Shown here piece after piece: positions 6,301 to 60,556 of a stretch of 64,000 nucleotides of DNA (the stretch's first letter is position 1; each line of letters starts with the position of its first letter). The stretch covers positions 7,241,394 to 7,305,393 of the forward strand of contig NC_087084.1 of assembly GCF_026151205.1 (NCBI RefSeq). Direction: 5' to 3'. The DNA is from Bolinopsis microptera (taxonomy: Eukaryota > Ctenophora > Tentaculata > Lobata > Bolinopsidae). A program made the position numbers and the translations under genes. Below the pieces are notes generated by a model. That model had not been told where the DNA came from. It ran no database searches and saw only the letters and a program-made list of their open reading frames with translations.

Positions 6301-9300
6301 CTCGGCCGGACATTTCACAGATAAGAGACTAGTTTAGCACGCTCGGCCGGATATTTCACAGATAAGAGACTAGTTTAGCACGCTCGGCCGGACATTTCAC
6401 AGATAAGAGACTAGTTTAGCACGCTCGGCCGGACATTTCACAGATAAGAGACTAGTTTAGCACGCTCGGCCGGATATTTCACAGATAAGAGACTAGTTTA
6501 GCTCTCCCAAAAAGGACCCCTCATCGGAATGTAATATTTACTGAAAAAGAAGGTCCCTTGAACCTGCAATATTGGGATGCAATATTCAACAAATTTATCA
6601 TATTGGACTGAAGTAATATCATTTTGCGTGAGGTTCCTCTCACTAAATTTTAAAATCGACTTTTCGATTCCATTTTAGAATTCCCAGTCGTCTCCTTGTA
6701 AATAGAGCTCTGCAACTTCTTATCGCAACGTTTCCAATCGTTAAAAATCGAAATCGTAAAAATGGTTATGTTTTTGATGTTTAGTAGTAAACCCGCGATG
6801 GGGTGGCATGTGCCTCAATAAAAATATTACAATCATTTATTATTATATCAATTTATCATTAAATATTTCAAGAATATCAATAACTAAACGTATGGTTGAT
6901 CCTTCACACTTGGTAAAATATATAAAAATAAAGTTAATCTACACTAGATTGTAACTGTTTGCGTCTCAGGTTTTCAAGACAAGCTACTCCGCTTCCCAAA
7001 CGACCTTTCCAAAGATAACTATGTGATTATGAAGCCTGATTTCAGCGCTGTACAACGGGAAATCTCCATCTGCTCCTGGCTCAAGATAGGCTTTGATTAC
7101 ACACCCTTTTCAAGTAGATTTGCTGTACCATGGTTCAGCTACGCTGTTCATGAAGCCGACAACACAATACTTTTGGGGGTTGAGTATTTCTTTATGGTTA
7201 ACTCCGCGGGAAATTCGTACCTAATGCAATTGCCAATAACTATCATACGAGATGAGTGGTACCACTTTTGTTTCACCTGGAAATCTGGAAGTGCAGATGT
7301 GTATGTTAATGGAGTTTCAGTGCTCTTTGATGAACAACGTGACGTAAGAGGACACATACCTTTAGGTGGAACTCTTGTTTTGGGACAAGACCAGGATGGC
7401 ATAGGCTGGTTTGGGGATTATGAACAGGGCGGATCGTTTGCCGGTAATTAAAGAACATATTTTTAGCGAGGAGGCTGCTTCTGTTCTTTTTATAAGTGTC
7501 CATCCAAAGTTTTATTGACATGGTAAAATTTTTCTGAGACCTAACATTATATTGCAGGTGACATGTACCAATTGAATGTCTTCAAGAAAAAACTGACTGA
7601 GAAAGAGGTGATAGAGATGTATGATAACTGTTGGTGGTGGACAGATAGGAGCCGCAAACTTAACTCTGACGTTGTTTTTAGCTGGAACGAAATATTGAGG
7701 AAAGGAGCGATTAAAGGGAACATTACAATGGAGGAAAGTAAGTGTTAAACTTACTAGGTAGGGAGGTATGGAGGTAGGGAGGTAGGGAGGTAGGGAGGTA
7801 GGGAGGTAGGGAGGTAGGGAGGTAGGGAGGTAGGGAGGTAGGGAGGTAGGGAGGTAGGGAGGTAGGGAGGTAGGGAGGTAGGGAGGTAGGGAGGTAGGGA
7901 GGTAGGGAGGTAGGGAGGTAGGGAGGTAGGGAGGTAGGGAGGTAGGGCGGTAGGGAGGTAGGGAGGTAGGGAGGTAGGGAGGTAGGGAGGTAGGGAGGTA
8001 GGGAGGTAGGGAGGTAGGGAGGTAGGGAGGTAGGGAGGTAGGGAGGTAGGGAGGTAGGGAGGTAGGGAGGTAGGGAGGTAGGGAGGTAGGGAGGTAGGGA
8101 GGTAGGGAGGTAGGGAGGTAGGGAGGTAGGGAGGTAGGGAGGTAGGGAGGTAGGGAGGTAGGGAGGTAGGGAGGTAGGGAGGTAGGGAGGTAGGGAGGTA
8201 GGGAGGTAGGGAGGTAGGGAGGTAGGGAGGTAGGGAGGTAGGGAGGTAGGGAGGTAGGGAGGTAGGGAGGTAGGGAGGTAGGGAGGTAGGGAGGTAGGGA
8301 GGTAGGGAGGTAGGGAGGTAGGGAGGTAGGGAGGTAGGGAGGTAGGGAGGTAGGGAGGTAGGGAGGTAGGGAGGTAGGGAGGTAGGGAGGTAGGGAGGTA
8401 GGGAGGTAGGGAGGTAGGGAGGTAGGGAGGTAGGGAGGTAGGGAGGTAGGGAGGTAGGGAGGTAGGGAGGTAGGGAGGTAGGGAGGTAGGGAGGTAGGGA
8501 GGTAGGGAGGTAGGGAGGTAGGGAGGTAGGGAGGTAGGGAGGTAGGGAGGTAGGGAGGTAGGGAGGTAGGGAGGTAGGGAGGTAGGGAGGTAGGGAGGTA
8601 GGGAGGTAGGGAGGTAGGGAGGTAGGGAGGTAGGGAGGTAGGGAGGTAGGGAGGTAGGGAGGTAGGGAGGTAGGGAGGTAGGGAGGTAGGGAGGTAGGGA
8701 GGTAGGGAGTAACCGTACATCGTAGTACATTCTAGTAAGAATTTGATAATCGGACTATTCTTTTAGAGGAGTGCCTCAGCAAGACTTGTGAGAGTATAGA
8801 TCCAGAATGGAAACAACGTGAGATACCCATATGCAAATTTAATACAACTTATGGCCGGTAAGCACATCTTTACAGTTTACATCATGCAAGTTGGTTCTTT
8901 TTTCATCCTCAAGTTGATGTGACTGCCCCGAGATATAATTAATAACGTTAACTCCAACCTTCACAAACTTTAATTATTGGTTTTTTGAATATCTCCTTTC
9001 TCAGAGAGATGGTGCAAAAGACAAGAGTTGACAGCTTTTTTGTTTTGGAGTCCCTTAGGCTCAGATCAAAGTATGGAATGAAAGATTATGCTGAACGATT
9101 AATACTGATATCCTGGAGTTTAACCGTTCTTCTAACGTCTTTGATAGGAGACAGTGTCATTCTCATAGCGACTATAAAATATAACGCCATCAAACATCAC
9201 AAAGTCATAGTAGCCGTAATGCAGAACATGGCTGTTTGTGATCTCCTACAAAGTGTATTCATCGTGTTACCCCGTACTTTGGTATTGATGACAGATCGTT

Positions 9301-9958: not shown

Positions 9959-11836
9959 TTTTTCTCCTTTCTCAGATCACCAATACAACAAAGACAAAGA
10001 ACCAATCGGAGACCGATATGCAATCCAACAACACGATCCATTCCAAGAGGTCCCTCACAAATAGATCTGCAAGGTGAAATGTCCCTTACTCCAGCGATAG
10101 AACTACAAGCTGACTCTTACCTTACTCCAGCGATAGAACTTCAAGGTGAAATGTCCCTTACTCCAGCGATAGAACTACAAGCTGACACTTCCCTTACTCC
10201 AGCGATAGAACTACAAGCTGACACTTCCCTTACTCCAGCGATAGAACTACAAGCTGATACATCCCTTACTCCAGCGATAGAACTACAAGGTAAAACGTCC
10301 CTTACTCCAGCGATAGAGCTGAAAGGTAAAACGTCCCTTGCTCCAGCGATAGAGCTGAAAGGTAAAACGTACCTTACTCCAGCGATAGAGCTGAAAGGTA
10401 AAACGTACCTTACTCCAGCGATAGAGCTGAAAGGTAAAACGTACCTTACTCCAGCGATAGAGCTGAAAGGTAAAACGTACCTTACTCCAGCGATAGAGCT
10501 GAAAGGTAAAACGTACCTTACTCCAGCGATAGAGCTGAAAGGTAAAACGTACCTTACTCCAGCGATAGAACTGAAAGGTAAAACGTACCTTACTCCAGCG
10601 ATAGAGCTGAAAGGTAAAACGTACCTTACTCCAGCGATAGAACTGAAAGGTAAAACGTACCTTACTCCAGCGATAGAGCTGAAAGGTAAAACGTACCTTA
10701 CTCCAGCGATAGAACTGAAAGGTAAAACGTACCTTACTCCAGCGATAGAGCTGAAAGGTAAAACGTACCTTACTCCAGCGATAGAGCTGAAAGGTAAAAC
10801 GTACCTTACTCCAGCGATAGAGCTGAAAGGTAAAACGTACCTTACTCCAGCGATAGAGCTGAAAGGTAAAACGTACCTTACTCCAGCGATAGAACTGAAA
10901 GGTAAAACGTACCTTACTCCAGCGATAGAGCTGAAAGGTAAAACGTACCTTACTCCAGCGATAGAGCTGAAAGGTAAAACGTACCTTACTCCAGCGATAG
11001 AACTGAAAGGTAAAACGTACCTTACTCCAGCGATAGAGCTGAAAGGTAAAACGTACCTTACTCCAGCGATAGAACTGAAAGGTAAAACGTACCTTACTCC
11101 AGCGATAGAGCTGAAAGGTAAAACGTACCTTACTCCAGCGATAGAGCTGAAAGGTAAAACGTACCTTACTCCAGCGATAGAACTGAAAGGTAAAACGTAC
11201 CTTACTCCAGCGATAGAGCTGAAAGGTAAAACGTACCTTACTCCAGCGATAGAACTGAAAGGTAAAACGTACCTTACTCCAGCGATAGAGCTGAAAGGTA
11301 AAACGTACCTTACTCCAGCGATAGAACTGAAAGGTAAAACGTACCTTACTCCAGCGATAGAGCTGAAAGGTAAAACGTACCTTACTCCAGCGATAGAACT
11401 GAAAGGTAAAACGTACCTTACTCCAGCGATAGAGCTGAAAGGTAAAACGTACCTTACTCCAGCGATAGAGCTGAAAGGTAAAACGTCCCTTACTCCAGCG
11501 ATAGAACTGCAAGGTGAAATGTCCCTTACTCCAGCGATAGAACTACAAGCTGACACTTCCCTTACTCCAGCGATAGAACTTCGAGGTGAAATATCCCTTA
11601 CTCCAGCGATAGAACTACAAGCTGACACGTCCCTTACTCCAGCGATAGAACTACACGGTGAAACGTTCCTTAGTCCAGCGATAGAACTGAAAGGTAAAAC
11701 TAAAACGTCCCTTGCTTCAGCGATAGAGCTGCACGGTGAAACGTCCCATACTCCACTGATAGAACTGCACGGATTACAGTCTGCAGTCACCGCAACAAAT
11801 TCCAAAAAATTTGGTCACTTTGATTTGATGCGATAG
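9959..11836 (+). CDS. Possible repeat-coded C-terminal tail of the receptor
   Basis: An open frame continues from just after the receptor stop to 11836. After a basic, glutamine-rich stretch (SPIQQRQRTNRR) it runs through about 47 copies of a 12-residue unit (LTPAIELKGKTY; variants LQGEMS and LQADTS) and ends in a non-repeated segment (ATNSKKFGHFDLMR). It is in a different frame from the 7TM exon. A donor at 9918 (ACA/GTACGA) and an acceptor at 9958 (CTCCAG) would join it in frame after YSLT, but the intron would be only 41 bp. With an acceptor at 9975 the tail instead ends early at NRSAR. A 36-bp unit lacking stops in three frames stays open by default, so the frame is weak evidence. It may simply be 3' UTR. 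Confidence 0.3.
   Translation, partial: FFSFLRSPIQQRQRTNRRPICNPTTRSIPRGPSQIDLQGEMSLTPAIELQADSYLTPAIELQGEMSLTPAIELQADTSLTPAIELQADTSLTPAIELQADTSLTPAIELQGKTSLTPAIELKGKTSLAPAIELKGKTYLTPAIELKGKTYLTPAIELKGKTYLTPAIELKGKTYLTPAIELKGKTYLTPAIELKGKTYLTPAIELKGKTYLTPAIELKGKTYLTPAIELKGKTYLTPAIELKGKTYLTPAIELKGKTYLTPAIELKGKTYLTPAIELKGKTYLTPAIELKGKTYLTPAIELKGKTYLTPAIELKGKTYLTPAIELKGKTYLTPAIELKGKTYLTPAIELKGKTYLTPAIELKGKTYLTPAIELKGKTYLTPAIELKGKTYLTPAIELKGKTYLTPAIELKGKTYLTPAIELKGKTYLTPAIELKGKTYLTPAIELKGKTYLTPAIELKGKTYLTPAIELKGKTYLTPAIELKGKTYLTPAIELKGKTYLTPAIELKGKTSLTPAIELQGEMSLTPAIELQADTSLTPAIELRGEISLTPAIELQADTSLTPAIELHGETFLSPAIELKGKTKTSLASAIELHGETSHTPLIELHGLQSAVTATNSKKFGHFDLMR
10066..11775. repeat. 36-bp minisatellite, about 47 copies
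   Basis: Units contain CTTACTCCAGCGATAGA. A homogeneous central block of about 31 units encodes KGKTY-type repeats. It is flanked on both sides by mixed units (GEM and ADT types) like those filling the duplicate array at 20657-23245. Two subtypes of the central unit differ by GAGCTG/GAACTG. The pattern indicates recent local amplification of one unit type. Confidence 0.95.
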
Positions 11837-20543: not shown

Positions 20544-20656
20544 AAAGAATGAATACAACCAATACAACACCAATACAACAAAGACAAAGAACCAATCAGA
20601 GACCGATATTCAATCCAACAACACGATCCATTCCAAGAAGTCCATCACAAATAGAT

Positions 20657-23245
20657 CTGCAAGGTGAAATGTCCCTTACTCCAGCGATAGAACTACAAGC
20701 TGACACTTCCCTTACTCCAGCGATAGAACTTCAAGGTAAAATGTCCCTTACTCCAGCGATAGAACTTCAAGGTAAAATGTCCCTTACTCCAGCGATAGAA
20801 CTACAAGCTGACACTTCCCTTACTCCAGCGATAGAACTGCAAGGTGAAATTTCCCTTACTCCAGCGATAGAACTTCAAGGTGAAATGTCCCTTACTCCAG
20901 CGATAGAACTGCAAGGTGAAATTTCCCTTACTCCAGCGATAGAACTGCAAGGTGAAATGTCCCTTACTCCAGCGATAGAACTACAAGCTGACACTTCCCT
21001 TACTCCAGCGATAGAACTTCAAGGTGAAATGTCCCTTACTCCAGCGATAGAACTACAAGCTGACACTTCCCTTACTCCAGCGATAGAACTTCAAGGTGAA
21101 ATGTCCCTTACTCCAGCGATAGAACTACAAGCTGACACTTCCCTTACTCCAGCGATAGAACTTCAAGGTGAAATGTCCCTTACTCCAGCGATAGAACTAC
21201 AAGCTGACACTTCCCTTACTCCAGCGATAGAACTTCAAGGTGAAATGTCCCTTACTCCAGCGATAGAACTACAAGCTGACACTTCCCTTACTCCAGCGAT
21301 AGAACTTCAAGGTGAAATGTCCCTTACTCCAGCGATAGAACTACAAGCTGACACTTCCCTTACTCCAGCGATAGAACTACAAGCTGACACTTCCCTTACT
21401 CCAGCGATAGAACTACAAGGTAAAACGTCCCTTACTCCAGCGATAGAACTTCAAGGTGAAATGTCCCTTACTCCAGCGATAGAACTTCAAGGTGATGCAC
21501 TTCCCTTACTCCAGCGATAGAACTGCAAGGTGAAATGTCCCTTACTCCAGCGATAGAACTACAAGCTGACACTTCCCTTACTCCAGCGATAGAACTTCAA
21601 GGTGAAATGTCCCTTACTCCAGCGATAGAACTACAAGCTGACACTTCCCTTACTCCAGCGATAGAACTTCAAGGTGAAATGTCCCTTACTCCAGCGATAG
21701 AACTTCAAGGTGATGCACTTCCCTTACTCCAGCGATAGAACTGCATGGTGAAATTTCCCTTACTCCAGCGATAGAACTTCAAGGTGAAATTTCCCTTACT
21801 CCAGCGATAGAACTGCAAGGTGAAATGTCCCTTACTCCAGCGATAGAACTACAAGCTGACACTTCCCTTACTCCAGCGATAGAACTTCAAGGTGAAATGT
21901 CCCTTACTCCAGCGATAGAACTACAAGCTGACACTTCCCTTACTCCAGCGATAGAACTTCAAGGTGAAATGTCCCTTACTCCAGCGATAGAACTACAAGC
22001 TGACACTTCCCTTACCCCAGCGATAGAACTGCGAGGTGAAAAGTGCCTTACTCCAGCGATAGAACTACAAGCTGATACTTCCCTTACTCCAGCGATAGAA
22101 CTTCAAGGTGAAATGTCCCTTACTCCAGCGATAGAACTACAAGCTGACATTTCCCTTACTCCAGCGATAGAACTTCAAGGTAAAATGTCCCTTACTCCAG
22201 CGATAGAACTACAAGCTGACACTTCCCTTACTCCAGCGATAGAACTTCAAGGTGAAATGTCCCTTACTCCAGCGATAGAACTACAAGCTGATACTTCCCT
22301 TACTCCAGCGATAGAACTGCTAGGTAAAATGTCCCTTACTCCAGCGATAGAACTACAAGGTAAAACATCCCTTACTCCAGCGATAGAACTTCAAGGTAAA
22401 ATGTCCCTTACTCCAGCGATAGAACTGCAAGGTGCATGGTGAAATTTCCCTTACTCCAGCGATAGAACTACAAGCTGACTCTTACCTTACTCCAGCGATA
22501 AAACTTCAAGGTGAAATTTCCCTTACTCCAGCGATAGAACTGATAGGTGAAATGTCCCTTACTCCAGCGATAGAACTACAAGCTGACACTTCCCTTACCC
22601 CAGCGATAGAACTGCGAGGTGAAAAGTCCCTTACTCCAGCGATAGAACTACAAGCTGACACTTCCCTTACTGATCCAGCGATAGAACTTCAAGGTAAAAT
22701 GTCCCTTACTCCAGCGATAGAACTACAAGCTGACACTTCCCTTACTCCAGCGATAGAGCTGCAAGGTGAAATTTCCCTTACTCCAGCGATAGAACTTCAA
22801 GGTGAAATGTCCCTTACTCCAGCGATAGAACTACAAGCTGACATTTCCCTTACTCCAGCGATAGAACTTCAAGGTGAAATGTCCCTTACTCCAGCGATAG
22901 AACTACAAGCTGACACTTCCCTTACCCCAGCGATAGAACTGCAAGGTGAAAAGTCCCTTACTCCAGCGATAGAACTTCGAGGTGAAATATCCCTTACTCT
23001 AGCGATAGAACTACAAGGTAAAACATCCCTTACTCCAGCGATAGAACTACAAGGTAAAACGTCCCTAATCCAGCGATAGAACTGAAAGGTAAAACTAAAA
23101 CGTCCCTTGCTCCAGCGATAGAACTACACGGTGAAACGTTCCTTAGTCCAGCGATAGAACTGAAAGGTAAAACTAAAATGTCCCTTGCTTCAGCGATAGA
23201 GCTGCACGGTGAAACGTCCCTTACTCCACTGATAGAACTGCACGG
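20657..23245. repeat. 36-bp minisatellite, about 72 copies, dimer-organised
   Basis: Same unit family as 10066-11775 but dominated by a 72-bp dimer encoding alternating LQGEMS and LQADTS repeats. Several indels break the reading frame (near 21490, 21710, 22430, 22670 and 23067), unlike the parent array. This fits loss of selection, or an untranslated array. Confidence 0.95.
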
Positions 23246-46127: not shown

Positions 46128-46614
46128 ACTTCCCCAAAAAAGTGAAGACTATTCTTATCCTAAAGGGCCCAAAATGGCTACTACCAGCAGCCATTTTTTT
46201 TTTAATTTGAAAATTCAATTAATCATTATATATATAAATCAAGCGTTACATTTCAGCCATGCAAAATTACAATGACATATTTTGATATACTAAATGATAA
46301 ATGGTACTGCAATATAAGTTGCTTAATGTTTGGCCGGATGACAACTAACGAGAAAAATAAACTTGATTATATAATAATTAATTCGGCTGAACCAACACAT
46401 AGCAAGAGCCACATTAACGTTGGGGCCGTCTACCAAATTTGAATGACAAACATTAACAAGAAATCAAACATATCATAAATAATTATAAGGATTTTGTTCA
46501 TTACAATTCCGTCACAGCTGATAAAGAAAAAGAAAAGGACAAGCAGATAGGAAATTGGACGGACAGAATTGTAACCAACAAAAACAAATTTCTGAGCCTC
46601 ATAAGACTGATGAG

Positions 46615-49600
46615 CTAATCTGGCCAGACTGTATCGGCAGCCCAGAGGTACTTGATCAGTTTGGCCTTAAAAGTAGAAATCCGCTCTGACTGCCGGATAC
46701 ATACTGGTAGACTATTCCATTTCAGCATAGATCTATGAAAAAAGCTATTTCGGAAGGCATCCGAGCAGGGCACAGTGGTACTCATGTAAGTTGAAGTATC
46801 CGACATATCAATTATTTGAGCATTGTGCCTAGTGTATCGGGTGCCCTCTGGACGGCATAGGACTATATATGTAGGGAGCGAAACTGGAATTATGCTATTC
46901 ACTATTTTATAGAAGGTCATAAGATCGTTATAAATAAACTTCTGTTTAACAGGGAGAATATTTAGTTTCTTTTGCTCTGTAGCAAGTTTATCGTCATTAT
47001 AACTGGAGTAAGGTTCACCATTGATCCATTTAATAGCCCTCTTTTGGATAGCAACAAACTGTTGAAGATGAGTTGCAGATTGAGGGGACCATATGACAGA
47101 ACAATGTTCAAATATAGACCTAATTAACGCTAAATAGAACGATCTTTTCTGCCTTTTATCAGTAGTGAAATGACATGTTCTCTTAAGTAGTCCAAGTCTA
47201 GAGGTAGCTTTGGAAACAAGCGCTTTACATTGTGCACCCCAATTAAACCTGGAGTTTATTGCGACTCCTAAATCTGACTGAGAGGGCACAAAGTCAATAT
47301 CACTTCCAGAAAGTTTATAAAAGAAGGTATTGAATGGCAAGTTATCCAGCACGTTTCTTTGCAGGGACACAGAGAGGGCTTTGCACTTTTGTGGGTGGAA
47401 CTTCATTCGATTTCTCACTGACCAATCATAAAGTCTGTTGATGTCATTTTGGATTATGTGATGGTCAGGGTAACCAAGGATCTCCCTCCAAATTTTAGTG
47501 TCATCTGCATAAAGGGCGATATTGGTGCCTTCAGAGACACAGGAGAACATGTCATTTATAAATATTACAAACAATAAAGGGCCAATTCCAAGTATAGAAC
47601 CTTGAGGGACACCAGACCGAACTGGTAGAGAAGAAGACGTTTGGCCTCCTATCACTACTTGTTGTTGTCGCCCCTCAAGATAGGACTTAATAAATTTAAG
47701 CATTAGTCCATCGACATTAAAAATATTCTTTAATTTACTTAAAATGAGGTCATGCGAAACGCTATCAAAAGCTTTCGCAAAATCAAAATATATTATATCA
47801 GTCCTGGACCTGTTATTCAATGCAAGTGCAAGATTGTCTGTGAAAGGTATCATTTGGGTTGTGCATGAACGTTCATTAACAAAACCGTGTTGTCGGTCAT
47901 CCAACAGATCAGAACATGCAGCGTATAATGCAGTCTTTATGCACCTTTCAAAGACTTTCATTACAAGAGATGTTAACGAGATAGGCCTGTAGTTCTCAAC
48001 CGAAGACTTATCGCCCTTTTTGTGCACTGGTACTACAAGTGCCAGCTTCCAATCAGGGGGTATGCATCCGCTCGAGAAAGACAGGTTAAATAAAACACTA
48101 AGTGGGTATGCAAGGCTTTGGGCACAGTTTTTGAGGACTCTCCCATGAATCCCATCAGGGCCAGGGGCCTTGTTAGGATTTAACTTTTTAAGAATCAACA
48201 GAACATCTTCTCTACTAAACACAAGACTTGAAAAACAATCATCACGAAAATCTATGTCAATGCCATAATCGCTCTCTTGAGAAAACTGCTCATAAAAATA
48301 TTCGTTAAAAAGGGCAGCTTGATCAGATGGATTGTTTCGAAAGCGATTATGATATTTGACAGTTTCAGGGATCCTGGTTGACTTTGATTTAGATTTAACG
48401 TAGGTCCAGAATTTCTTGGAGATAAGAGCATCATCGGAGTCATCCTCAACACTGAGTCTCATTCTTTCGTCCATCAAATTTTTAAATTTTGTGCGAAATG
48501 CCCGAAACTTTTGTTTATGAGACTCAGAGTTGCTCCCCTTATGCCTTATTCTCCATTTCTCCTTATTTCGTAGGAGACGATCACATTCGGAGTCATACCA
48601 TGGGGGCTGGAACTGAGACTTAATGGTCTTTTTAGGGATCCATCGGTCACAGGCTGCACCGAGAACTCCTCTGAATCGACTCCAGGCAAGATAAGGATCA
48701 TTACACTCAAATATACTATCCCAATCGATGCTAAATAACTCAGAATTCATGCCCCTAAAATTACCTTTACTATAATTAAAGATCTTTCTTTTAGGCTGCT
48801 TAATATACTTGGTCTTAATATCAATGTCAAATGTGATACAAAAGTGGTCGGACATACACATTTCGTTTTGATCTAAAACTTTAACATTCTTAATAAGGTT
48901 TTGAATGTTAGTGAACACAAGATCTAAGGTGTTGCCTGACTTGTGAGTAGGGGAGCTAATAAGTTGTGTATGTCCGAGGTCATCAGTGAGAAAATTCACA
49001 AAGCTAGAATGTAGCTGGCAAGATGACTGACCATCTGGCCAGGAAATCGAAGCTAAATTAAAGTCACCTACCAGAATGTGCCTTTGCAATTTTCTGGCAG
49101 ATGCTAAAGTAACAAAATGTTTCTTGAAAGATTCAAAATTATCTAAGCCAAGCGTTCCTACTCTATAAAATGTTGATATACAAAAGTTTCTTCCACACTG
49201 AGTCTTAATTATGATGGATAATAATTCAGCTTGAACACTAACTTTAGAGAACTTTAGACTCGAGATATCAATGTCTGTTCTATGGGCAATCAGAACACCA
49301 CCACCGTTTTTTCTGAATTTCTTGGGCTGGGTTGCATCCACTGGATGCGATCTTTAGGATCGGTCAAGCCTAAATACTTTGTATTTGTCAGGGAGCACCT
49401 CATTACTGAGAATGGAATTTTTCAGCCATGTCTCGTTTAGAATAATGATGTGAGGCTTATGTTTGTAGATATAACCATGGAATTCATGTATCTTGGTCAT
49501 ATTTAGTGGTGGTGTTCCTGATGCTAAATCGCGTGTATTTAGGAAACCATGGACATTATTGTAAACAACGGATAAATTTGGTCCAGGGTTCAGTAAGGAA

Positions 49601-50127
49601 CAATTACAAATTACTATCAGGGAAATATTAAGGAGAGATAGAAAAACCAGACCACACCTAGACATGACCCCAAGCCAGCTGCTGGTTATACTGAAAAGTA
49701 ACTTAACAGTCTGTTTCGGTGACATGGTAGGTGACAGTTCGGTTTTTGTGGTAGATAGCAATTTTACAGAAATTGCAGCTAAGGCTGTCCCAATGCCCGC
49801 CTCCCCCCTATACACAAGTTTAAAGTGTCTGAGAAAAATGGTACAAAATATTACCATAAAGTAAAGATTTATGGATGACCTCAAACATGGTACAGAGTGT
49901 ATTTTAGGTTGTAGGGGAGCACCAGGGAGTATATTAGCATCGATAGTCAAAGAAAATATATACAAAATAACATAAAAATAAAATATACCCAATAGAGCAC
50001 ATAACATATGACGAGACAGAAGACAGGACAACAAATTTTCCCCGTTACCTCTATTACTTTTACTGATGATAACATACCTAGAAAACATACCAGTTGCAAC
50101 ACGGTGTTGTTGAGCCGATATTCCCAT
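46615..50127 (-). pseudogene. LINE A ORF2: AP endonuclease-reverse transcriptase, one nonsense codon
   Basis: One frame of about 1170 codons, interrupted only by a TAA at 49354-49356 between FRLDRS and SHPVDATQ; LINE B has a leucine codon there. Residues 1-175 are hydrophobic with about three membrane-like segments (41-62, 86-101, 158-175) and end in SLLNPGP (NPGP 180-183). The AP endonuclease follows: NNVHG, NETWL, GDFNLASISW, SDH. The RT has KKGDKSSVENYRPISL, FDFAKAFDSV, GVPQGSILG and the catalytic YADDTKIW, then the usual thumb blocks (SDLGVAIN, FEHCSVIW, IQKRAIKWI). Role: nicks target DNA and primes reverse transcription from it. A GTG/ATG-like restart after the stop would still give endonuclease-truncated RT. 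Confidence 0.9.
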
Positions 50128-50321
50128 GGAACTTTAAAGTATATTATTAACAGAATTGTGTCTCGCCGTTGTGTTTTGTTAGGTATTGTGCTATAATATG
50201 AAGTAACATACATTATGCTATTACTTCGTTTGAATACATATAAATAACATCCAAATGATCAGATCCAATAGGATACTGATGCAGACAATGAAAAATTTAA
50301 ATATTGAATTGAATTACCACA

Positions 50322-51833
50322 TCAGTATCCCAATGGATTAAACCACTTTGAGTGTATGATTCTGAGATAGAACTTTGCCAACACTGGCATCCCAGCTTTG
50401 GGGCTGGGATGAATATCATAAAAGCCCCTGTTGTCACATTTAGGAAATAATCTCTCGTTTCTGTTTCCATAGCGGTCTAAGAAAGCCCAAAAAACATCAA
50501 GGTAAAACAGTTTATGCCTAGAGCAGCGATCAAAGATCAAATTATTCATAGCACAAACATTACCAGGGATTTTATCTTGTCCGTTGGGGTGGACTGGTGG
50601 AATAGCTTGTACAAAAACACGTGCATTTGGATAAAGTTTTTTTGCTGTCTTCATTAGGTCACTCACAGGGGTCTTGAGATGATTGACACCCTGGGTACAG
50701 TACCGGATGTCGTTGGCACCGAAGCTTAAGAACAGTTTCTTTACCTGCACAAGAGGGTTCTTTGTATGAAAGGCCTCAATAGATTTCTGTATAGCTGAGA
50801 TCTTAAGCCCACCCTTAGCTATGTTGGTGACAGTTTCTTTACCTCTACTGAGGCGATCAGTGTCCAATCGAGCAGCAAAGGAGTCACCAGCAATGAGAAT
50901 GATAGACTTCTGGTGTTTATGAGAGTCTGTGATGGGGGCTTTTGGGGATACTTTATTAGGACTGTCGGATGTAGGAGAGGGAAGAATAGGAGATGAAGGG
51001 GAAGAGGACGGTGTGGTTAACTTTCTGAAGGAGAGACTATACCTCCAACAAATTTCATTGTCAGAAGGTGCAACTCCTGGGGCAATCCTGTGCCTCATGA
51101 CTTGCTGTGCACCAGGCTTCATGATGTTCAGTGTGCCATTGGTGGCAGGAAGGGTGAAGTCTGCGTTAATCAACTCTTGGGCTGGCCTTGACCTAGAGGC
51201 CCTAGTTGTGCGTTGTTCTACTTGGGTTGTATCGAGCACAAACTCAAGTGACCGTGGAGCCCCTATTGAGTAAGTGCAAATGGAGCTGGACTGTGATATT
51301 ATTAGGTCTTCATCGTCTTTATGGAGGCTTAACTTAGCTTGCTGAGTGTCGTACCTAGTAACAAGGCAAGCATCCATGTTGTTGGTGGTGGAGGGGAGGT
51401 CATTAATAAGTCCCATCAACTTAAAGATGCTAGGGAAGTTGTTGATGGGATGTGGCTTGTTAACTATGTTACCAAAGCAGTAGTCTTCTGATGAAGGGCT
51501 TAGCCATAGGGTGTGGACTTTTTTAGATTTGCCTTCAAGATTCATTGAATCTAATTCTTCTGTGATTTTTTTGAATAGATTTTCATCCATTCCAGGGAGG
51601 ACTGGAACGTGCTCTACGAGCGTATGTGGGCTATACGAGACATTTTGAACAGTAGTTTCCTTCTTCGTTTTCTTTTCCTTCTTCTTTTCATCTATACGTT
51701 CTATTTTAGAGGCAAGCTTTTTCTCTTTCAGACTGTCCAGGATACTCTGAGTAAGGAGGGTATGCATGTGTTGCTTTACTTCAAGAGATAAGTTTTGCAG
51801 TAAGGCGAGGAAGTTGGCGGGCAGTGTTAACAT
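50322..51833 (-). CDS. LINE A ORF1: AlkB-like dioxygenase fused to SGNH hydrolase
   Basis: 503 residues, fully open. Residues 1-65 are charged and possibly helical, with a lysine-rich run (KKKEKKTKK). Residues ~75-272 match the AlkB-type 2OG-Fe(II) oxygenase core: 2OG-binding-type LVTRY (157-161), HxD iron motif H171-K-D173, YSIGAPRSLEF (188-198), MKPG then distal H248 (MRHR), and RYSLSFR (264-270) in the 2OG-arginine position. After a serine/proline linker, ~308-503 is an SGNH/GDSL hydrolase: GDS (316-318), GG (341-342), GANDIRY (372-378) and DIH (473-475). SGNH (esterase) domains are known in CR1/L2 ORF1 proteins; the AlkB fusion is not something I can recall as described. Inferred role: RNA-binding particle protein that may repair or demethylate the element RNA and act on membranes or acyl groups. 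Start: first methionine in frame. Confidence 0.85.
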   Translation of the reverse strand: MLTLPANFLALLQNLSLEVKQHMHTLLTQSILDSLKEKKLASKIERIDEKKKEKKTKKETTVQNVSYSPHTLVEHVPVLPGMDENLFKKITEELDSMNLEGKSKKVHTLWLSPSSEDYCFGNIVNKPHPINNFPSIFKLMGLINDLPSTTNNMDACLVTRYDTQQAKLSLHKDDEDLIISQSSSICTYSIGAPRSLEFVLDTTQVEQRTTRASRSRPAQELINADFTLPATNGTLNIMKPGAQQVMRHRIAPGVAPSDNEICWRYSLSFRKLTTPSSSPSSPILPSPTSDSPNKVSPKAPITDSHKHQKSIILIAGDSFAARLDTDRLSRGKETVTNIAKGGLKISAIQKSIEAFHTKNPLVQVKKLFLSFGANDIRYCTQGVNHLKTPVSDLMKTAKKLYPNARVFVQAIPPVHPNGQDKIPGNVCAMNNLIFDRCSRHKLFYLDVFWAFLDRYGNRNERLFPKCDNRGFYDIHPSPKAGMPVLAKFYLRIIHSKWFNPLGY

Positions 51834-52140
51834 CTTGTTGTGAAGTGTGGGAGGATCGGGAGGAGACTGGGTGATCCGGATAAGAGATCAACAGCAGGAT
51901 GTTTCAGTGGCACCGTTGTAAACCCTAGCAATCTGGATCTGAAACAGTTAATAGGCCAGAGATTTATAGTTCAGAGTGAGAAAAATTTGAATTATAATGA
52001 ACAGAGGTGTTGTAAAGAACTGTATAGCAAAAAAAAGAATGCAATACTTATCTAAAGGAGAAGTAGCTAAAAGGAGTTAATAAATTTCAAACATCACTAG
52101 ATCTCTAACAATAAAACTAACCTCGTACCAGACCGCAGGA

Positions 52141-52167
52141 GCCCTGGTAGTACAAGACTACCAGGGC
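52141..52167 (-). ncRNA. LINE A 5' UTR hairpin
   Basis: Perfect 11-bp stem (52141-52151 with 52157-52167; GCCCTGGTAGT arm) and a 5-nt loop. It lies in the 5' UTR, about 310 nt upstream of the ORF1 start on the minus strand, next to an AGGA flank shared with LINE B. Confidence 0.75.
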
Positions 52168-52326
52168 AATAGGAAAAAACGATTACCACCTCCACAACCT
52201 GCCATCTAGCTCAGATCCATCACACCCAGGACACCGGCAGACTTTACTCCAACGGATTACTCATCGGTAGCCATGCCTAAATTATTTGTTATATAGTAGT
52301 GTTGAAAGTATTAAAACCTCAGTATC

Positions 52327-53690: not shown

Positions 53691-54489
53691 TGCTCAGGAT
53701 TAACGTTTGTGCTCTGCCAATTGCATCACTTGATTTAATTTATTGTATATATATTATATATACTGTTTAACATTTTTCACTCTTCAATAAAAAACTAGCT
53801 TAATGTCAGTAGGTCGTTAAGAATTTTTGTGTGCACACACAGATACCTAACAGTATTATTATTATTATATCTTGTCTGGATATTCGAACCTTTCGAATTG
53901 TATCTCGAAATTTATGTTTAAATTCCCTGTGTAGTTTTTTCAAGGTATAATGGGAATAATATTGTAAAATGTCTATTGTATAATGTCATCATTTTATGGC
54001 TCTTCAAGTATCCATTTTGATTGATGTAGCAATTTGAAGTTGCAGCCGAAGATTTATTGATTTTAATGTGGTCCATTCTTAATAAAAATATTTTGCGTTA
54101 CTATTCGTTTAAACAGTAAACTGCTTTAGTTTTTAACTGTTTAGGAGATGATTTGAAGCAGTGCAACGATCTAAGTGCGGTGAAAACGAAGTCAGACCAA
54201 AGCCAGATGCTTTAGTTCACACTGTGACTGATTAATGTACCTCTCAACCTCTGCAGTCTGCAACATACTGACTGTCTTACTTGTAACCTGGTTAGTTATA
54301 ATAGTTATTTTTAATCGTATACCTTCAAGCTTTCCTCCAAACACTGATTTATTGCTAGTATTTTATATTACTGAGCAGACTGAACCAAGTTTTGATTAAA
54401 TGATTAAGATTATTAAAGTTGAGATCATAATCGTATTAATCCAACAATTAATGATCGCTTGTATTTGTTGCTGTGAGACACAAAACACT
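53691..54489. other. Right-arm DNA without a gene
   Basis: Counterpart of 40850-41640 in the left arm. Contains AT-rich DNA, a TGTGTGCACACA-type short palindrome and an (ATT)n run near 53855. No coding signal. Confidence 0.5.
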
Positions 54490-54963
54490 TTTTTTTATTG
54501 AAATCTTTCAATTATTATCATCAGAATTTATTACAATATCAATGTTGTATAGAATTTCTAAAAATGGACTAGAGAAACCAAAAAATGCCTTGACAAGTGT
54601 ACAGCGATGATAACAATCAGGGGACACCAATACACCCAAATAACCAAACAAAAGGCCTCGAGAGACCTGATGAAAAGTCGAGCAATTACATTGGGCCCCA
54701 AGTGCAGAAGGAGAAAAATGGGCAAATAATATGAGCTGTGAACTTAGGAGGCATTTCTAGGTTTTTAAGAATAATTGCCACAACCCAAAAATTCTCAATT
54801 ACAATTGGCTGATTTGTAATATTTCCAATGGAATGAAGTTTTAACGATAAAATTTAAATAATTGAATATAAAAGACTAAATCAAAATTGTATCCGAATAA
54901 AGCAAAAATGCGTGATGAGTACCTCAAAAAAAAAATTTAAAACAAAAATAATAGAGAAATACA

Positions 54964-57900
54964 CTACCCGTAGTCTGGAGAAAAAGAATTGTCAGGATCT
55001 GAACTAGGGTCAATATCTACAGATGCAGTACAAACATGTTCCTTCCAGATGTGTTTAATAAGTTCTGTTTTAAACACACCTGGTCTGATAATCTCTCGAA
55101 GGGAAAGAGGAAGTCGGTTCCAAGTGAGATGAGCTCGATAAAAGTAAGATTTAGATATAGCTGAGCCAGGTGGAATTGAAGATATTACTGATAAGTGATC
55201 AAGATGTGAGCTTCTCAGTCGGCTTGACCCGGAGAAGAAAGTAAGGTACTGAGGCAGAGTGGTGCATGGGTGGTATTGATGCACTAGGGAATGAAAGAAC
55301 TTGAGATCATGGTAATCAAACCTGTACTTTAGGGGCAGAATATTTAACTGTTTACAATGGGCATTATAGATTTCCTCTACACTATAGCTTACACCGTAAT
55401 CATTACGAATCCATTTGAGGGCCCTTTTCTGCAATCCTTCAAGCCTATTGATAGTGCTACTGGACGCTGGTCGCCAAATGATGGGACAGTGTTCGAATAT
55501 TGAGCGTACAAGAGTAAGATACAAGACTCTTCTCTTGTTCAGATCATTAATAAAATGACAATTTCTCTTAAGCATGCCAAATTTTTGGTTAGCTTTACCA
55601 TATAGAGCATCGGCCTGGCTATTAAAATTTAGATTAGACGTCATGATTATGCCTAAATCTTTTTCAGAATCTGTATAATCAAGAAGAGTTTGGCCCATAG
55701 AGTAAGTGTAACGTGTAAATGGTAAAATGCCATCTAAGGGAGACCACCTCTTAAGTATAGCTAAGACCTTACATTTATCAGGATGAAACTTCATCTTATT
55801 AGTTCTTGCCCATGTCATGAGATAATTAATATCGCTTTGAAGTATATGGTGGTCTTCCTCTTGGGATATCTCTCTCTCCACATTTTAGTATCATCAGCGT
55901 ATAAAAGGATATTAGTGCCCTGAGAAAGTCCAGAATATATATCATTTATGAAAAGAACAAAAAGTGTTGGTCCGATTATTGACCCTTGAGGAACACCTGA
56001 CAACACCGGTAGGGTTGCAGAGATAGCCCCATTAACAACTACACATTGCTGACGTCCGGAGAGGTAACTTTTCATAAATTGGAGAAGCATTCCATCGATG
56101 CTATAATAAAATTTTAGCTTGTATAGTATTAAGTCGTGGTTAACGGAATCGAATGCTTTGGCGAAATCGAAGTAAACAATATCAGATCTAATGTTCTTGT
56201 TAAGAGAGAGGGATAGGCTATCGCAGAATTCAACCATCTGAGTTGCACAAGATTTGTGAGGCAGGAAACCATGTTGACGAGGATCAATTTTATCATAACA
56301 TCTACTCAAAAGTTCATCTCGAATAATTCTTTCCATGACTTTCATAACTAAGCTAGTCAAAGATATTGGCCTATAATTCTTAATGTCATTCTTGGAGCCT
56401 TTCTTGTGTACTGGAACAACAATTGCATATTTCCAATTTGAAGGTAGGAAGCCGGATACATAGCACTTTGTGAAAAGAATCTCCAGTGCTGGGGCTAAGG
56501 TAAAGGCACATTTTTTAAGAACTTCACCATGGATTTTATCCGGTCCCATAGCTTTTCTAGTATTCAAATTCTTGAGAATATCTACTATCCTAGACGAACT
56601 GAAAAGGGTAGATACATAATCAATATCATCCTGTGTGAGTGTGTTATCAACATGTACATCATAATCACTAGGCGATGAGAACTGTTGATGAAAAAAGGTA
56701 TTAAATAGGTTTGCTTGGTCAGAATGATCACTTTTGTGTACATCTTCTAGGTGAATTTGTTCAGGTATGCGAGTATTCTTAGATGTTGCCTTTACATAGG
56801 ACCAGAATTTCTTTGTAATTAGATTCGAATCATCCTCGTCCTCAAAGCTAGATGCCATCTTGTTGGAGGCAATTTTCTTAAAATCGCTTCTGCTTTTAGA
56901 GAACTTAAAGTACTTCTCAGCCTTGCAGGAAGGGTCCGTGGTTTCTTTATAACTTTTGTGTAGCCTTTCTTTTTCTAGGCAGGCCTGATGAGACTCAGCG
57001 TCAAACCAAGGAGGTTGAGCCCTGCCTCCAATTTTAATCTTTGGAATATGTTCATTGGTTCTTTGCTCTAAAACATCCTTAAACTTGTTCCATGATGTTT
57101 CCATATTACCAGTGAACTCTGCCTGCCAGTCAATATCTGCAAGGTCTGCATTAAGTGCATCCCAATTTGCTCTTTTAAAATTTAAAGATTCCCTCTTTTG
57201 CGATTTGATGCGCTTCACCTTTGATTTCAAAGTAAAGGAGACTGCAAAATGGTCGGACTTACATGGAATATTATGTTCTGAAATTTTTATATCGGAGATA
57301 AGATGGGGTTTATCGGTTAAGACTAGATCAAGAATGTTTCCTCCAGTATGTGTTGGACTGGTAATAAGTTGCTCTAAACCAAAGTTACTAAAAGTATCTA
57401 GAAAGAGCTGTTCAACCGGATTGCTGCTACAGTAATTCTGCCAATCAATACCAGGTAGATTAAGATCCCCTGCAATTACAATACCTCTAACACCTCTACG
57501 TTGCCTTGCCTTCCTAACATAATCTTGGAAGGCGTTATGATTGTTGGCCCCTAAAGTACCTACCCTATAGAAGCTGCAAAGAATTAGTTTACTACCGTCC
57601 CTAAATTTGAGTGTTATACCAAGAAGCTCTGCCGGGCACTTGTACTCTAACTTAGTAGATACAATATCAATGTCCCTACGTATAGCAACTAAAACGCCAC
57701 CCCCATGCTTCCTAAATCTTCTTGGATTCTGTGGATCTGGTGGATGGGTTTGTAAGGAACGATCAAGTCTAAAAACTTTGTACGATTCAGGTATGACTTC
57801 AGAGTCAATGATAGACTTTTTAAGCCAAGATTCATTGATCAGGAGGATGTCCGGTTCATGGCAGTGAATATAGTGATGGAGTTCAAATATTTTAGTGTTG

Positions 57901-58520
57901 TCAAAAGAAGGATTGTCGGACTGTAGCTGTGAGAAGGGAATCAGGCCATGCGTATTAAAAGAAACAACCTTGAGGTATGTAGTAGGCCCAGGGTTAAGTA
58001 AGCTTGGGTTGACAATAATTAAAAGGACAGCGTTCAAGGTATGTATCCAAAGCATGCAGCTAACAGTAATAATATTGAGGCAGTGCATAATTAGCTGAAT
58101 GTATCCGTAACTGTCTGGTTTGTTTTCAAGACCAGTGAAGTTCAGCTTGCCAAGTAAGCCAGGAGAAGCCCCTAATATTTTATAAAGCCACCAGTCTTTT
58201 TTGAAGAGAAAAAACAATAATACCGCAGCATAGCTTTTGCTATGACTGTGGAAGAGATGAATAAATTCATTGTCTGAGATGCTGTGGAAGGCTGTGACAG
58301 TAAAAGGTCTAAAATGACACTCCAAAGCCATCCCAATCGTCACACTCATCACACATAATGCAAAATAGAGATACAAATAAATCAAAACAAAAAGTCTTAA
58401 AGCATCAAGAACCCCGATGTCGGGCACAAAGTTACCTGTTATACTAACCTGCTTAGATCTGCGGTTCTTACTGTTGTTATAAATACCAACTCTTAATCTA
58501 TATTGACTTAGATCTATCAT
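54964..58520 (-). pseudogene. LINE B ORF2: AP endonuclease-reverse transcriptase, one frameshift
   Basis: First part 58520-55815, second part 55881-54964 in another frame; they meet in a GA run (about 55868-55880) just after the catalytic YADDTKMW, where LINE A reads on without a break. A change in the number of GA dinucleotides explains it. The N-terminus again has membrane-like segments (38-66, 98-108, 143-170) and SLLNPGP (NPGP 176-179). Endonuclease: NTHG, NESWL, GDLNLPGIDW, SDHF. RT: NYRPISLTSL, FDFAKAFDSV, GVPQGSIIG. The second part has DLGIIMTS, FEHCPIIW and LQKRALKWI. It would be inactive as it stands unless frameshifting occurs. Confidence 0.9.
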
Positions 58521-58642
58521 CTAGTAGCATTAAGGGAACCCTGTTAACCGACATCCAGCTCCAAAAACTTTTAAAATCAGTCTAATATATCTTAAAATTC
58601 GAATTATGAAAACTAGCTTGACCCCTAAAGCCCTAATAGTAA

Positions 58643-60037
58643 TTACTGAAAAGTGAATGGGTCAAAAAAGTTACTATGAACCGCTCTCAGATAAAGTTTA
58701 GCTAGGACACCCATGCCCCTAGCCTCACTGGGATGGATGTCTCCAGCCTTGAAAAATCTATCATCTCTGATATGAGGTACTCGTGGATCAAAGTATCGTA
58801 GAGAAAATGGACGAAAAGCGTCTAACATATGGAATCTTCGATATATACATTCATTCTTGATGACACTATTCATTTTCATAACAAAAGAGTTAGTTCTCCA
58901 GTCATGCCTGCTTTTGCAAGGCAGAGGTAAAAGGGACTGAAAATAAACTTTTGAAGAAGTATAAAGTTCTTTGATTAAAGCACATAGACTCTTAAATTTA
59001 AGCTTAATCTTATCTAAAGAGTCCGCATATCTAATGTCGTTCGTTCCGACACTAATACATATCTTATCTACAATGACAGACTCATTCTTAGACTTAAAAT
59101 CTCTAATCTGCTCCATCACTTGATGTATTCTTGCTCCTCCACTGGCAACAGACACAACATCAACACATTTTCTACCAAGTTTTACAGTGTCCAGCCTGGC
59201 AGCATAGCTATCACCGGCGATTAGGCACACATGTCTGAATGCTGGAGCTGTGAGGCTACCGTTATCAATATCACTCTTGACGTGACCTGACGGTTGTTCA
59301 GCTCCCTTCGTTTGTGCTACATCCGGTAGAGGTGGATGAGGACGCTTTGCCATAGCCCGGAAGGATAATGAATATCTCAGCGAAGGTGTCCCAGGCGCGC
59401 CTGATTCACCAGGAACGCGATGCTTCATAACCTCCTGGGTACCAGGTTTCATAAGCACCAGGCTTCTGTTCTCCATTCTGAAGGATCGGACAACCTTTTT
59501 GTCAGCATTGGAGAGAAAGTCAATCGTCCGGGGTTCACCAATTGATAGATTACAAATGGGCTGATTTGTGTCCATGGTTGTTTCGTCGTCTGCATGCAGA
59601 CTCGTACCTGCACTTGTTGAAGTGTACTTGAGTACTAAACAAGAGTCCATTTTGCAATTAAACCTCTCATTAAATGTCTCCATAACTTTACTGAAAGTAG
59701 GAAGTGTGGTGATGTCCTTAGCATGATGTACTGGCTTACTATCGACATATATGTAAGGCCTGTCGGTTACACTGAGCCATTGTGACTCAGGTCTTCTGGA
59801 TGAAGCCGACAAGTTGAGGGAATCACACTCAGCCAACAAGTCGGAACAAACTGTACTGTCAATTATATCTGGAATAAATTCCAAGTGTCCAACCAGGTGC
59901 CTAAAATCCATAATCTTCTGAGCAGTTTTAATGAGGGCTGCTAGGTCCTGTGTTGAAGCGGATGAAAGCGATTCAATAGTATCTTTGAGGTTAAACATTG
60001 TATTGTACCAAGATGAGGGAGCTGGATTCAGGTTCAC
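58643..60037 (-). CDS. LINE B ORF1: AlkB-like dioxygenase fused to SGNH hydrolase
   Basis: 464 residues, fully open. AlkB-like part ~45-230: LVLKY (134-138), iron motif H148-A-D150, LSIGEPRTIDF (164-174), MKPGTQ with distal H206 (MKHR), RYSLSFR (221-227). SGNH part ~267-464: GDS (275-277), GG (300-301), GTNDIRY (331-337), DIH (433-435). Sequence identity to LINE A ORF1 is low outside motifs and the N-terminal ~45 residues are unrelated, yet every catalytic residue of both domains is kept. That argues that both activities were under selection while the family diversified. It follows a 5' UTR of about 520 nt and precedes ORF2 by 122 nt. The first methionine of the frame was taken as start. Confidence 0.85.
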   Translation of the reverse strand: MNLNPAPSSWYNTMFNLKDTIESLSSASTQDLAALIKTAQKIMDFRHLVGHLEFIPDIIDSTVCSDLLAECDSLNLSASSRRPESQWLSVTDRPYIYVDSKPVHHAKDITTLPTFSKVMETFNERFNCKMDSCLVLKYTSTSAGTSLHADDETTMDTNQPICNLSIGEPRTIDFLSNADKKVVRSFRMENRSLVLMKPGTQEVMKHRVPGESGAPGTPSLRYSLSFRAMAKRPHPPLPDVAQTKGAEQPSGHVKSDIDNGSLTAPAFRHVCLIAGDSYAARLDTVKLGRKCVDVVSVASGGARIHQVMEQIRDFKSKNESVIVDKICISVGTNDIRYADSLDKIKLKFKSLCALIKELYTSSKVYFQSLLPLPCKSRHDWRTNSFVMKMNSVIKNECIYRRFHMLDAFRPFSLRYFDPRVPHIRDDRFFKAGDIHPSEARGMGVLAKLYLRAVHSNFFDPFTFQ

Positions 60038-60381
60038 TGGATTGCCGTCAAGGTATCAAGAGCAGTCACCACCAGTTGTCAGCGATTAAGTGTAGCTGAG
60101 GAAAGAAAGTGAGTTGAATGGTGAAATAACAAAATTGAAGACAAGAATTAATGAGAACAGTGTTAGCAGCGACCAGTGGTCATTATGCTAGCAAGATCAT
60201 CAAAAAACCATCCTCTCAACAAGAAACTTGCTGAGGATGCAGCAACTGTTATCCTGGACTCATAAAAGAAGAGAGTATTATGGAGGTTGAATAATCGAAA
60301 CTGATTGAGAAGAAAGTGGTAAAAATAGGTATAACTAAATTTTTATTTAGTCAATATACAACCTGGTAGTGAAGTTAGGAG

Positions 60382-60404
60382 CCACCCAGCTTTATGCTGG
60401 GTGG
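60382..60404 (-). ncRNA. LINE B 5' UTR hairpin
   Basis: Perfect 9-bp stem (60382-60390 with 60396-60404; CCACCCAGC arm) and a 5-nt loop. It is about 345 nt upstream of ORF1, preceded on the plus strand by the same AGGAG as in LINE A, but the stem sequence is different. Confidence 0.75.
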
Positions 60405-60556
60405 AAGAGAAGGAGAAACTGGCAGTGAACAACTCAAGACACCCATCTGGCTCCCCAGATCCCCATCATACCCGCCGATTCAGCTGCACTTTGCCGCCAT
60501 GCTAGCGTACATGCCTAATAAATGTAATAGATTTGTAGTGTTGTAATTAGTTTAAA

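Follow-up and report, generated by a model that had tools for sequence, protein, structure and literature searches.

The stretch analysed here (the window) comprises 64,000 nucleotides of the ctenophore Bolinopsis microptera (contig NC_087084.1, positions 7,241,394 to 7,305,393; coordinates below count from its first letter). It contains a long interspersed nuclear element (LINE), assigned to family E, whose first open reading frame (ORF1) encodes the protein P0001. On the evidence of sequence comparison and modelled structure, P0001 is the ORF1 protein of an apurinic/apyrimidinic endonuclease (APE)-type LINE, a non-long terminal repeat (non-LTR) retrotransposon, with an AlkB-type Fe(II)/2-oxoglutarate (2OG) dioxygenase N-terminal to an SGNH esterase; the latter, by sequence, belongs with the esterases already described in ORF1 proteins of LINEs. 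The element ends were read as the points where blastn similarity to other genomic copies stops, giving the following features.

46192..52317, minus strand: LINE element of family E, about 6.1 kb long and A-rich at its tail (blastn against copies L019, L020 and L022)
50322..51833, minus strand: ORF1 (P0001), 503 aa, a single open frame
51684..51818, minus strand: N-terminal helices, residues 6-50, then a Lys-rich stretch (AlphaFold2 secondary structure; sequence)
51012..51644, minus strand: AlkB-like 2OG-Fe(II) dioxygenase domain, residues 64-274
51315..51323, minus strand: HxD metal motif H171-K-D173, invariant in the alignments and matching the HxD of E. coli AlkB
50343..50918, minus strand: SGNH/GDSL hydrolase domain, residues 306-497
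49354..50127, minus strand: N-terminal part of ORF2, with hydrophobic segments, NPGP and the start of the endonuclease region
46615..49341, minus strand: remainder of ORF2 in a different frame, with endonuclease (PF14529) and reverse transcriptase (PF00078)

P0001 runs from the N-terminal helices through the AlkB domain and a Ser/Pro-rich linker to the SGNH hydrolase domain. A preliminary description, made from the letters alone, had placed the motifs HKD, H, RYSLSFR, GDS, GAND and DIH in one frame directly upstream of an endonuclease-reverse transcriptase ORF, and this arrangement is borne out on the minus strand. ORF2 is broken into two frames in the window (50127-49354 and 49341-46615), the first of which gave no Pfam match by itself; in the related copy L020 it is uninterrupted, with 1168 aa. 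The endonuclease and reverse transcriptase in ORF2, the A-rich 3' tail and the dispersed full-length copies are features of APE-type non-LTR elements. A single cellular gene was ruled out by near-identical copies on many contigs, with differing flanks and A-rich ends. Target-site duplications were not recognised at the element ends in an inspection by eye, a systematic search not having been made.

The catalytic motifs of both domains are present in P0001: H171-K-D173, H248 and R264-YSLSF-R270, followed by GDS (S318), GAND (N374) and DIH (H475). Comparison of the ORF1 alignment with E. coli AlkB by hhalign (probability 83, E = 8.6e-6) paired the five AlkB positions, those of the putative metal triad and of the RxxxxxR motif, with their counterparts H131, D133, H187, R204 and R210. 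AlphaFold2 and structure alignments predicted the AlkB double-stranded beta-helix fold that the preliminary description had named as the check on its proposal, with ABH2 and ALKBH3, in DNA complexes, as best structural neighbours. The C-terminal half has the SGNH fold with its Ser, Gly, Asn and His. An 18-row profile of near-identical copies from seven families, searched against PDB sequences, returned ALKBH3 first (9.9e-14), then sialate O-acetylesterase (3.4e-12), the zebrafish LINE ORF1 esterase 4c1b (3.2e-10) and ALKBH2 (4.7e-9). With a second LINE clade included (see below), a nine-row profile gave ALKBH3 at 2e-16, sialate O-acetylesterase at 5e-13, 4c1b at 1.1e-12 and ALKBH2 at 1.1e-11. 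In family F (ORF1s of L023-L026), the serine of the esterase lies in GTS instead of GDS; Ser, Gly, Asn and His are all retained.

Nine ORF1s (P0001, P0002, L012, L014, L017, L021, L024, L027 and L033) were also tested singly. The Pfam 2OG model (PF13532) was matched above its cut-off, at 56.8-63.4 bits, by five of them (P0002, L012, L014, L021 and L033) and the GDSL model by seven; each of the nine matched one or both. Several results count against the AlkB assignment. P0001 as a single sequence yields no hit to the Pfam 2OG model at E <= 1, matching the GDSL model only, and its NCBIfam AlkB match is weak (E = 0.002, far short of the model cut-off); three further ORF1s (L017, L024 and L027) likewise fall short of the Pfam 2OG model, making 4/9. 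When the AlkB part (71-270) of the AlphaFold2 model is divided into 20 ten-residue blocks, predicted local distance difference test (pLDDT) scores reach 80 in just 11, and the blocks with the HxD score 66-68. The assignment of P0001 itself rests on relatives, profile and fold. A chance 2OG-like motif in the linker of an ordinary esterase-type ORF1 would account for the missing Pfam match of P0001, but we give this reading next to no weight and treat it as ruled out, because both halves match by profile and fold, five of nine ORF1s match the 2OG model and the nine catalytic positions are invariant. The fusion claimed in the preliminary description thus stands.

A second element with the same ORF1 architecture lies at higher coordinates in the window.

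54484..60520, minus strand: LINE element of family A, about 6.0 kb long and A-rich at its tail (99.4-99.5% identical to L009 and L010 by blastn)
58643..60037, minus strand: ORF1 (P0002), AlkB and SGNH domains (Pfam)
55815..58520, minus strand: first frame of ORF2, with hydrophobic N-terminus, endonuclease and partial reverse transcriptase
54964..55881, minus strand: C-terminal part of ORF2, in another frame

P0002 probably starts at the ATG at 59998, giving 451 aa, and exceeds both Pfam cut-offs (PF13532, 2OG-FeII_Oxy_2, 4.7e-15; PF13472, Lipase_GDSL_2, 1.2e-10). In the copy L009, ORF2 is a single frame of 1184 aa.

The genome (264.65 Mb in 232 contigs) was searched with P0002. At least 92 matches at 30-100% identity were obtained, some loci contributing two; at least 79 were 380 residues or more in span, of which 75 had no internal stop. 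As 91 of 780 candidates were scored, the counts are lower bounds. Both ORFs were open in 11 of 20 loci compared (ORF1, 446-509 aa; ORF2, 1142-1184 aa). Full-length copies were 98-99.7% identical over 5.6-6.1 kb within families A, C, D, F and H and 95-99% identical in family E; such near-identity points to recent activity of these LINE families.

In L021, a copy of family E adjoins an element of another LINE clade and seems to have inserted within it. Loci of this second clade with PHD-like fingers are given below.

L029 2346-5747, minus strand: second-clade locus with PHD-like finger
L030 2108-3088, minus strand: second-clade locus with PHD-like finger
L033 52-2238, minus strand: second-clade locus with PHD-like finger

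The second-clade ORF2 (L029, 1133 residues) has a PHD-like finger followed by endonuclease and reverse transcriptase, and is 23-24% identical to the other ORF2s. An ORF1 remnant (L021 448-1512) carries AlkB and SGNH (hhalign 1.8e-16). A complete ORF1 of 728 aa, from a nearby element with a similar ORF2 start, comprises a PHD-like finger, long predicted helices, AlkB (2.4e-16) and SGNH, the last scoring just 13.1 bits in Pfam; hhalign spans both domains at 2.4e-15. Its predicted structure has a mean pLDDT of 51.6 and was therefore used for the AlkB part alone. By sequence, the fusion is present in two LINE clades, through common descent or ORF1 transfer. The PHD-like fingers stand at the ORF2 start in two elements and at the ORF1 start in the one complete ORF1, all under Pfam cut-offs.

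Conservation was assessed at nine catalytic positions (P0001 H171, D173, H248, R264 and R270; S318, G342, N374 and H475). All nine are among the 46 invariant columns of 367 gap-free columns in the 18-row alignment (p ~4e-9), and among the 25 of 291 when nine ORF1s of both clades are aligned (p ~6e-11); these p-values assume like, independent columns and serve as a guide only. Between families B and C, which differ by 20% in protein sequence, the ratio of nonsynonymous to synonymous substitution rates (dN/dS) was 0.15-0.16 for AlkB and 0.11-0.12 for SGNH. Long-term purifying selection on the AlkB part is clear from these comparisons.

Recent copies give a less favourable picture for a working dioxygenase. 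AlkB dN/dS was 0.41, against 0.06 for SGNH, between the window copy of family E and L019, and 0.42 against 0.16 between L019 and L020; it reached 0.59-1.05 in four of six family F pairs (at most 9 nonsynonymous and 4 synonymous changes) and 1.17 in a family H pair (4 and 1). The window copy and L020 gave 0.23 and 0.22. These figures rest on small, uneven change counts, and the constraint on the AlkB part is perhaps looser than that on the esterase. Looser recent constraint in some copy pairs would suit an AlkB fold kept as a non-catalytic nucleic-acid-binding module, much as the SGNH fold of Oskar has been called non-catalytic, a known loss of activity (PMC3905857, in the part available). We consider such a module improbable, since the five metal and 2OG residues are invariant in the 18 rows and in both clades, and with the SGNH residues nine of nine.

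A catalytic AlkB domain in ORF1 could act on the element's own RNA. In the mechanism we propose, the ORF1 protein would bind the LINE RNA and carry the AlkB domain to it. The domain, nearest to ALKBH3 and ALKBH2, would oxidatively strip methylation from the Watson-Crick face of bases, as in N1-methyladenosine (m1A) and 3-methylcytidine (m3C), clearing it before target-primed reverse transcription, where it would otherwise stall the element's reverse transcriptase. The esterase domain would direct the particle towards membranes or lipids, a role put forward earlier for the ORF1 protein of zebrafish L2. The element would thereby bring its own template-repair enzyme. PMC12140624 reports that m1A, m3C, 1-methylguanosine (m1G) and N2,N2-dimethylguanosine (m2,2G) interfere with common reverse transcriptases and that the R2 enzyme of ordered two-template relay (OTTR) is impeded by m1A. 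After treatment with AlkB, which takes off m1A and m3C, more 3' tRNA halves were captured in that work.

We put about even chances on the whole of this explanation, a LINE ORF1 joining AlkB and SGNH in which AlkB repairs the element's RNA template. Several points tell against it. The substrate class is deduced from similarity, with identity to ALKBH2 and ALKBH3 at just 18-24% in structure alignments; in structure, FTO and ALKBH5 are near neighbours as well. That these ORF1 proteins bind RNA is an assumption; oligo-(A) RNA was reportedly not bound by the ZfL2-1 esterase (PMC3905857), and the first 75 ORF1 residues are acidic in four of six families looked at, while K+R exceeds D+E over the whole protein in all six. 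For intact tRNA, the benefit of AlkB treatment was described as modest (PMC12140624). Demethylation or repair by the domain is what sequence and model suggest, support that is computational. In that sense the proposal of the preliminary description, an element carrying its own RNA demethylase or repair enzyme, is supported.

The ranking of relatives also bears on what the enzyme would remove. ALKBH3, whose substrates are m1A and m3C in single strands, is top by profile and ALKBH2 matches too, with tied fold scores. An eraser of regulatory N6-methyladenosine (m6A), or a similar host mark, on LINE or host RNA would serve escape from host control rather than repair of lesions that block reverse transcription. 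The structural nearness of FTO and ALKBH5 fits it, and an orchid Gypsy AlkB with RNA demethylase activity in vitro, for which the same role was proposed, offers a precedent (PMC9289625, in part). Neither ALKBH5 nor FTO, however, is among the 53 matches of the nine-row profile at E <= 1, which ALKBH3 and ALKBH2 lead, and in human L1 m6A helps retrotransposition and ALKBH5 suppresses it (PMC7873242, in part); we regard mark erasure as credible but unlikely. Less likely again, in our view, is action on DNA at integration, where the domain would repair 1-methyladenine (1mA) or 3-methylcytosine (3mC), or remove a DNA mark, in single-stranded target or first-strand cDNA. The DNA complexes of the top neighbours ABH2 and ALKBH3 agree with this, and a PHD-like finger in the 728-aa ORF1 would fit a chromatin role, but that match is under its Pfam cut-off (20.4 bits vs 24) and the role ascribed to ORF1 domains is to bind the transcript and act as its chaperone (PMC4120745).

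Template repair and mark erasure come together in a broader proposition, that at least seven LINE families and a distant clade encode their own nucleic-acid dealkylase in ORF1, keeping the RNA template readable by reverse transcriptase or erasing host marks; this could, we judge, equally well prove right or wrong. An intact, selected AlkB site in a LINE ORF1 would make methylation and alkylation limits on retrotransposition directly testable. Plant RNA viruses and the orchid LTR element would be joined by a further kind of RNA-based selfish element that encodes an AlkB, which would suggest that base methylation repeatedly hinders genomes with an RNA stage. All LINE relatives compared come from this one genome, which narrows the base of the proposition. 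Collections of viral and of prokaryotic contigs gave 10 and 12 pattern matches, respectively, and no relative by tblastn, results that have no bearing on other animals.

The two halves of P0001 each have counterparts in mobile elements. Among solved structures, profile and fold both place human ALKBH3 and ALKBH2 nearest to the AlkB part; these are host repair enzymes that are not known to have an SGNH domain. The zebrafish ZfL2-1 ORF1 protein (PDB 4c1b; type IV, CR1/L2) likewise has an SGNH esterase with conserved catalytic residues, in an ORF1 upstream of an APE-reverse transcriptase ORF2; unlike in P0001, no AlkB domain is described for type IV ORF1 of CR1/L2 LINEs, PMC4120745 mentioning neither AlkB nor oxygenase and PMC3905857 not mentioning AlkB. 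A Phalaenopsis Ty3/Gypsy retrotransposon also has an AlkB-type demethylase, retained through rounds of replication. It differs in being a plant LTR element with the enzyme, ALKBH5-like, in a separate additional ORF, and SGNH is nowhere mentioned in the paper (PMC9289625). Plant RNA viruses (Alpha- and Betaflexiviridae, Closteroviridae) are RNA-based selfish elements with their own AlkB, thought to repair RNA (PMC9289625, in part), and Foldseek against BFVD found a similar predicted fold among viral AlkB domains; theirs sits in replicase polyproteins, whereas that of P0001 sits in a LINE ORF1. No LINE with an AlkB domain was found among the papers listed in searches of the open PMC literature, with most subscription papers and Repbase Reports outside the search. 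AlkB and SGNH are thus each known singly in mobile elements, and the LINE ORF1 fusion is new as far as searched, an earlier description being possible.

Pairwise identities of ORF1 and ORF2 among the seven families were uncorrelated (Spearman -0.10, 21 pairs). In the FastTree tree of ORF1, A joined B and C, and D joined E and H; in that of ORF2, A joined E and H. The conflicting nodes have support of 0.979 and 0.993. A more careful ORF1 tree united D, E and H (100/100) and rejected A with E and H (approximately unbiased test, p 1.6e-6); with ORF2, neither the grouping of D, E and H (p 0.09) nor that of A, B and C (p 0.07) was rejected. The groups tested were picked after the trees were seen. 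The two trees conflict in places that the tests do not settle; ORF1 may have been exchanged between elements, and we do not claim that it was.

Copies of families A, C, E, F and H share a stretch at their 5' ends that contains TTTTAATACTTTCAACACTACTATATAACAAATAATTTAGGCATG or a variant, and the ORF1s of these families are only 24-43% identical to one another. In the comparison of the window and L009-L028 copies, some copies and family D were without TTTTAATACTTTCAACACTACTATATAACAAATAATTTAGGCATG.

ORF2 starts were examined in the window (49354-50127 and 55815-58520, minus strand) and in L009, L012, L014, L017, L020, L024 and L027. In all seven families they comprise about 160-185 residues with two to four hydrophobic, transmembrane-like segments (Kyte-Doolittle), followed, ahead of the endonuclease, by NPGP, which resembles a 2A peptide without its D-x-E. 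Candidate roles are those of a membrane leader or of a 2A site that has degenerated.

Elsewhere, the window holds long tandem arrays at 5554-6502, 7756-8709, 10061-11767 and 20651-23239, with periods of 41, 8, 36 and 36/72 bases; the 36-base arrays retain frames encoding repeats such as TPAIELQGEMSL.
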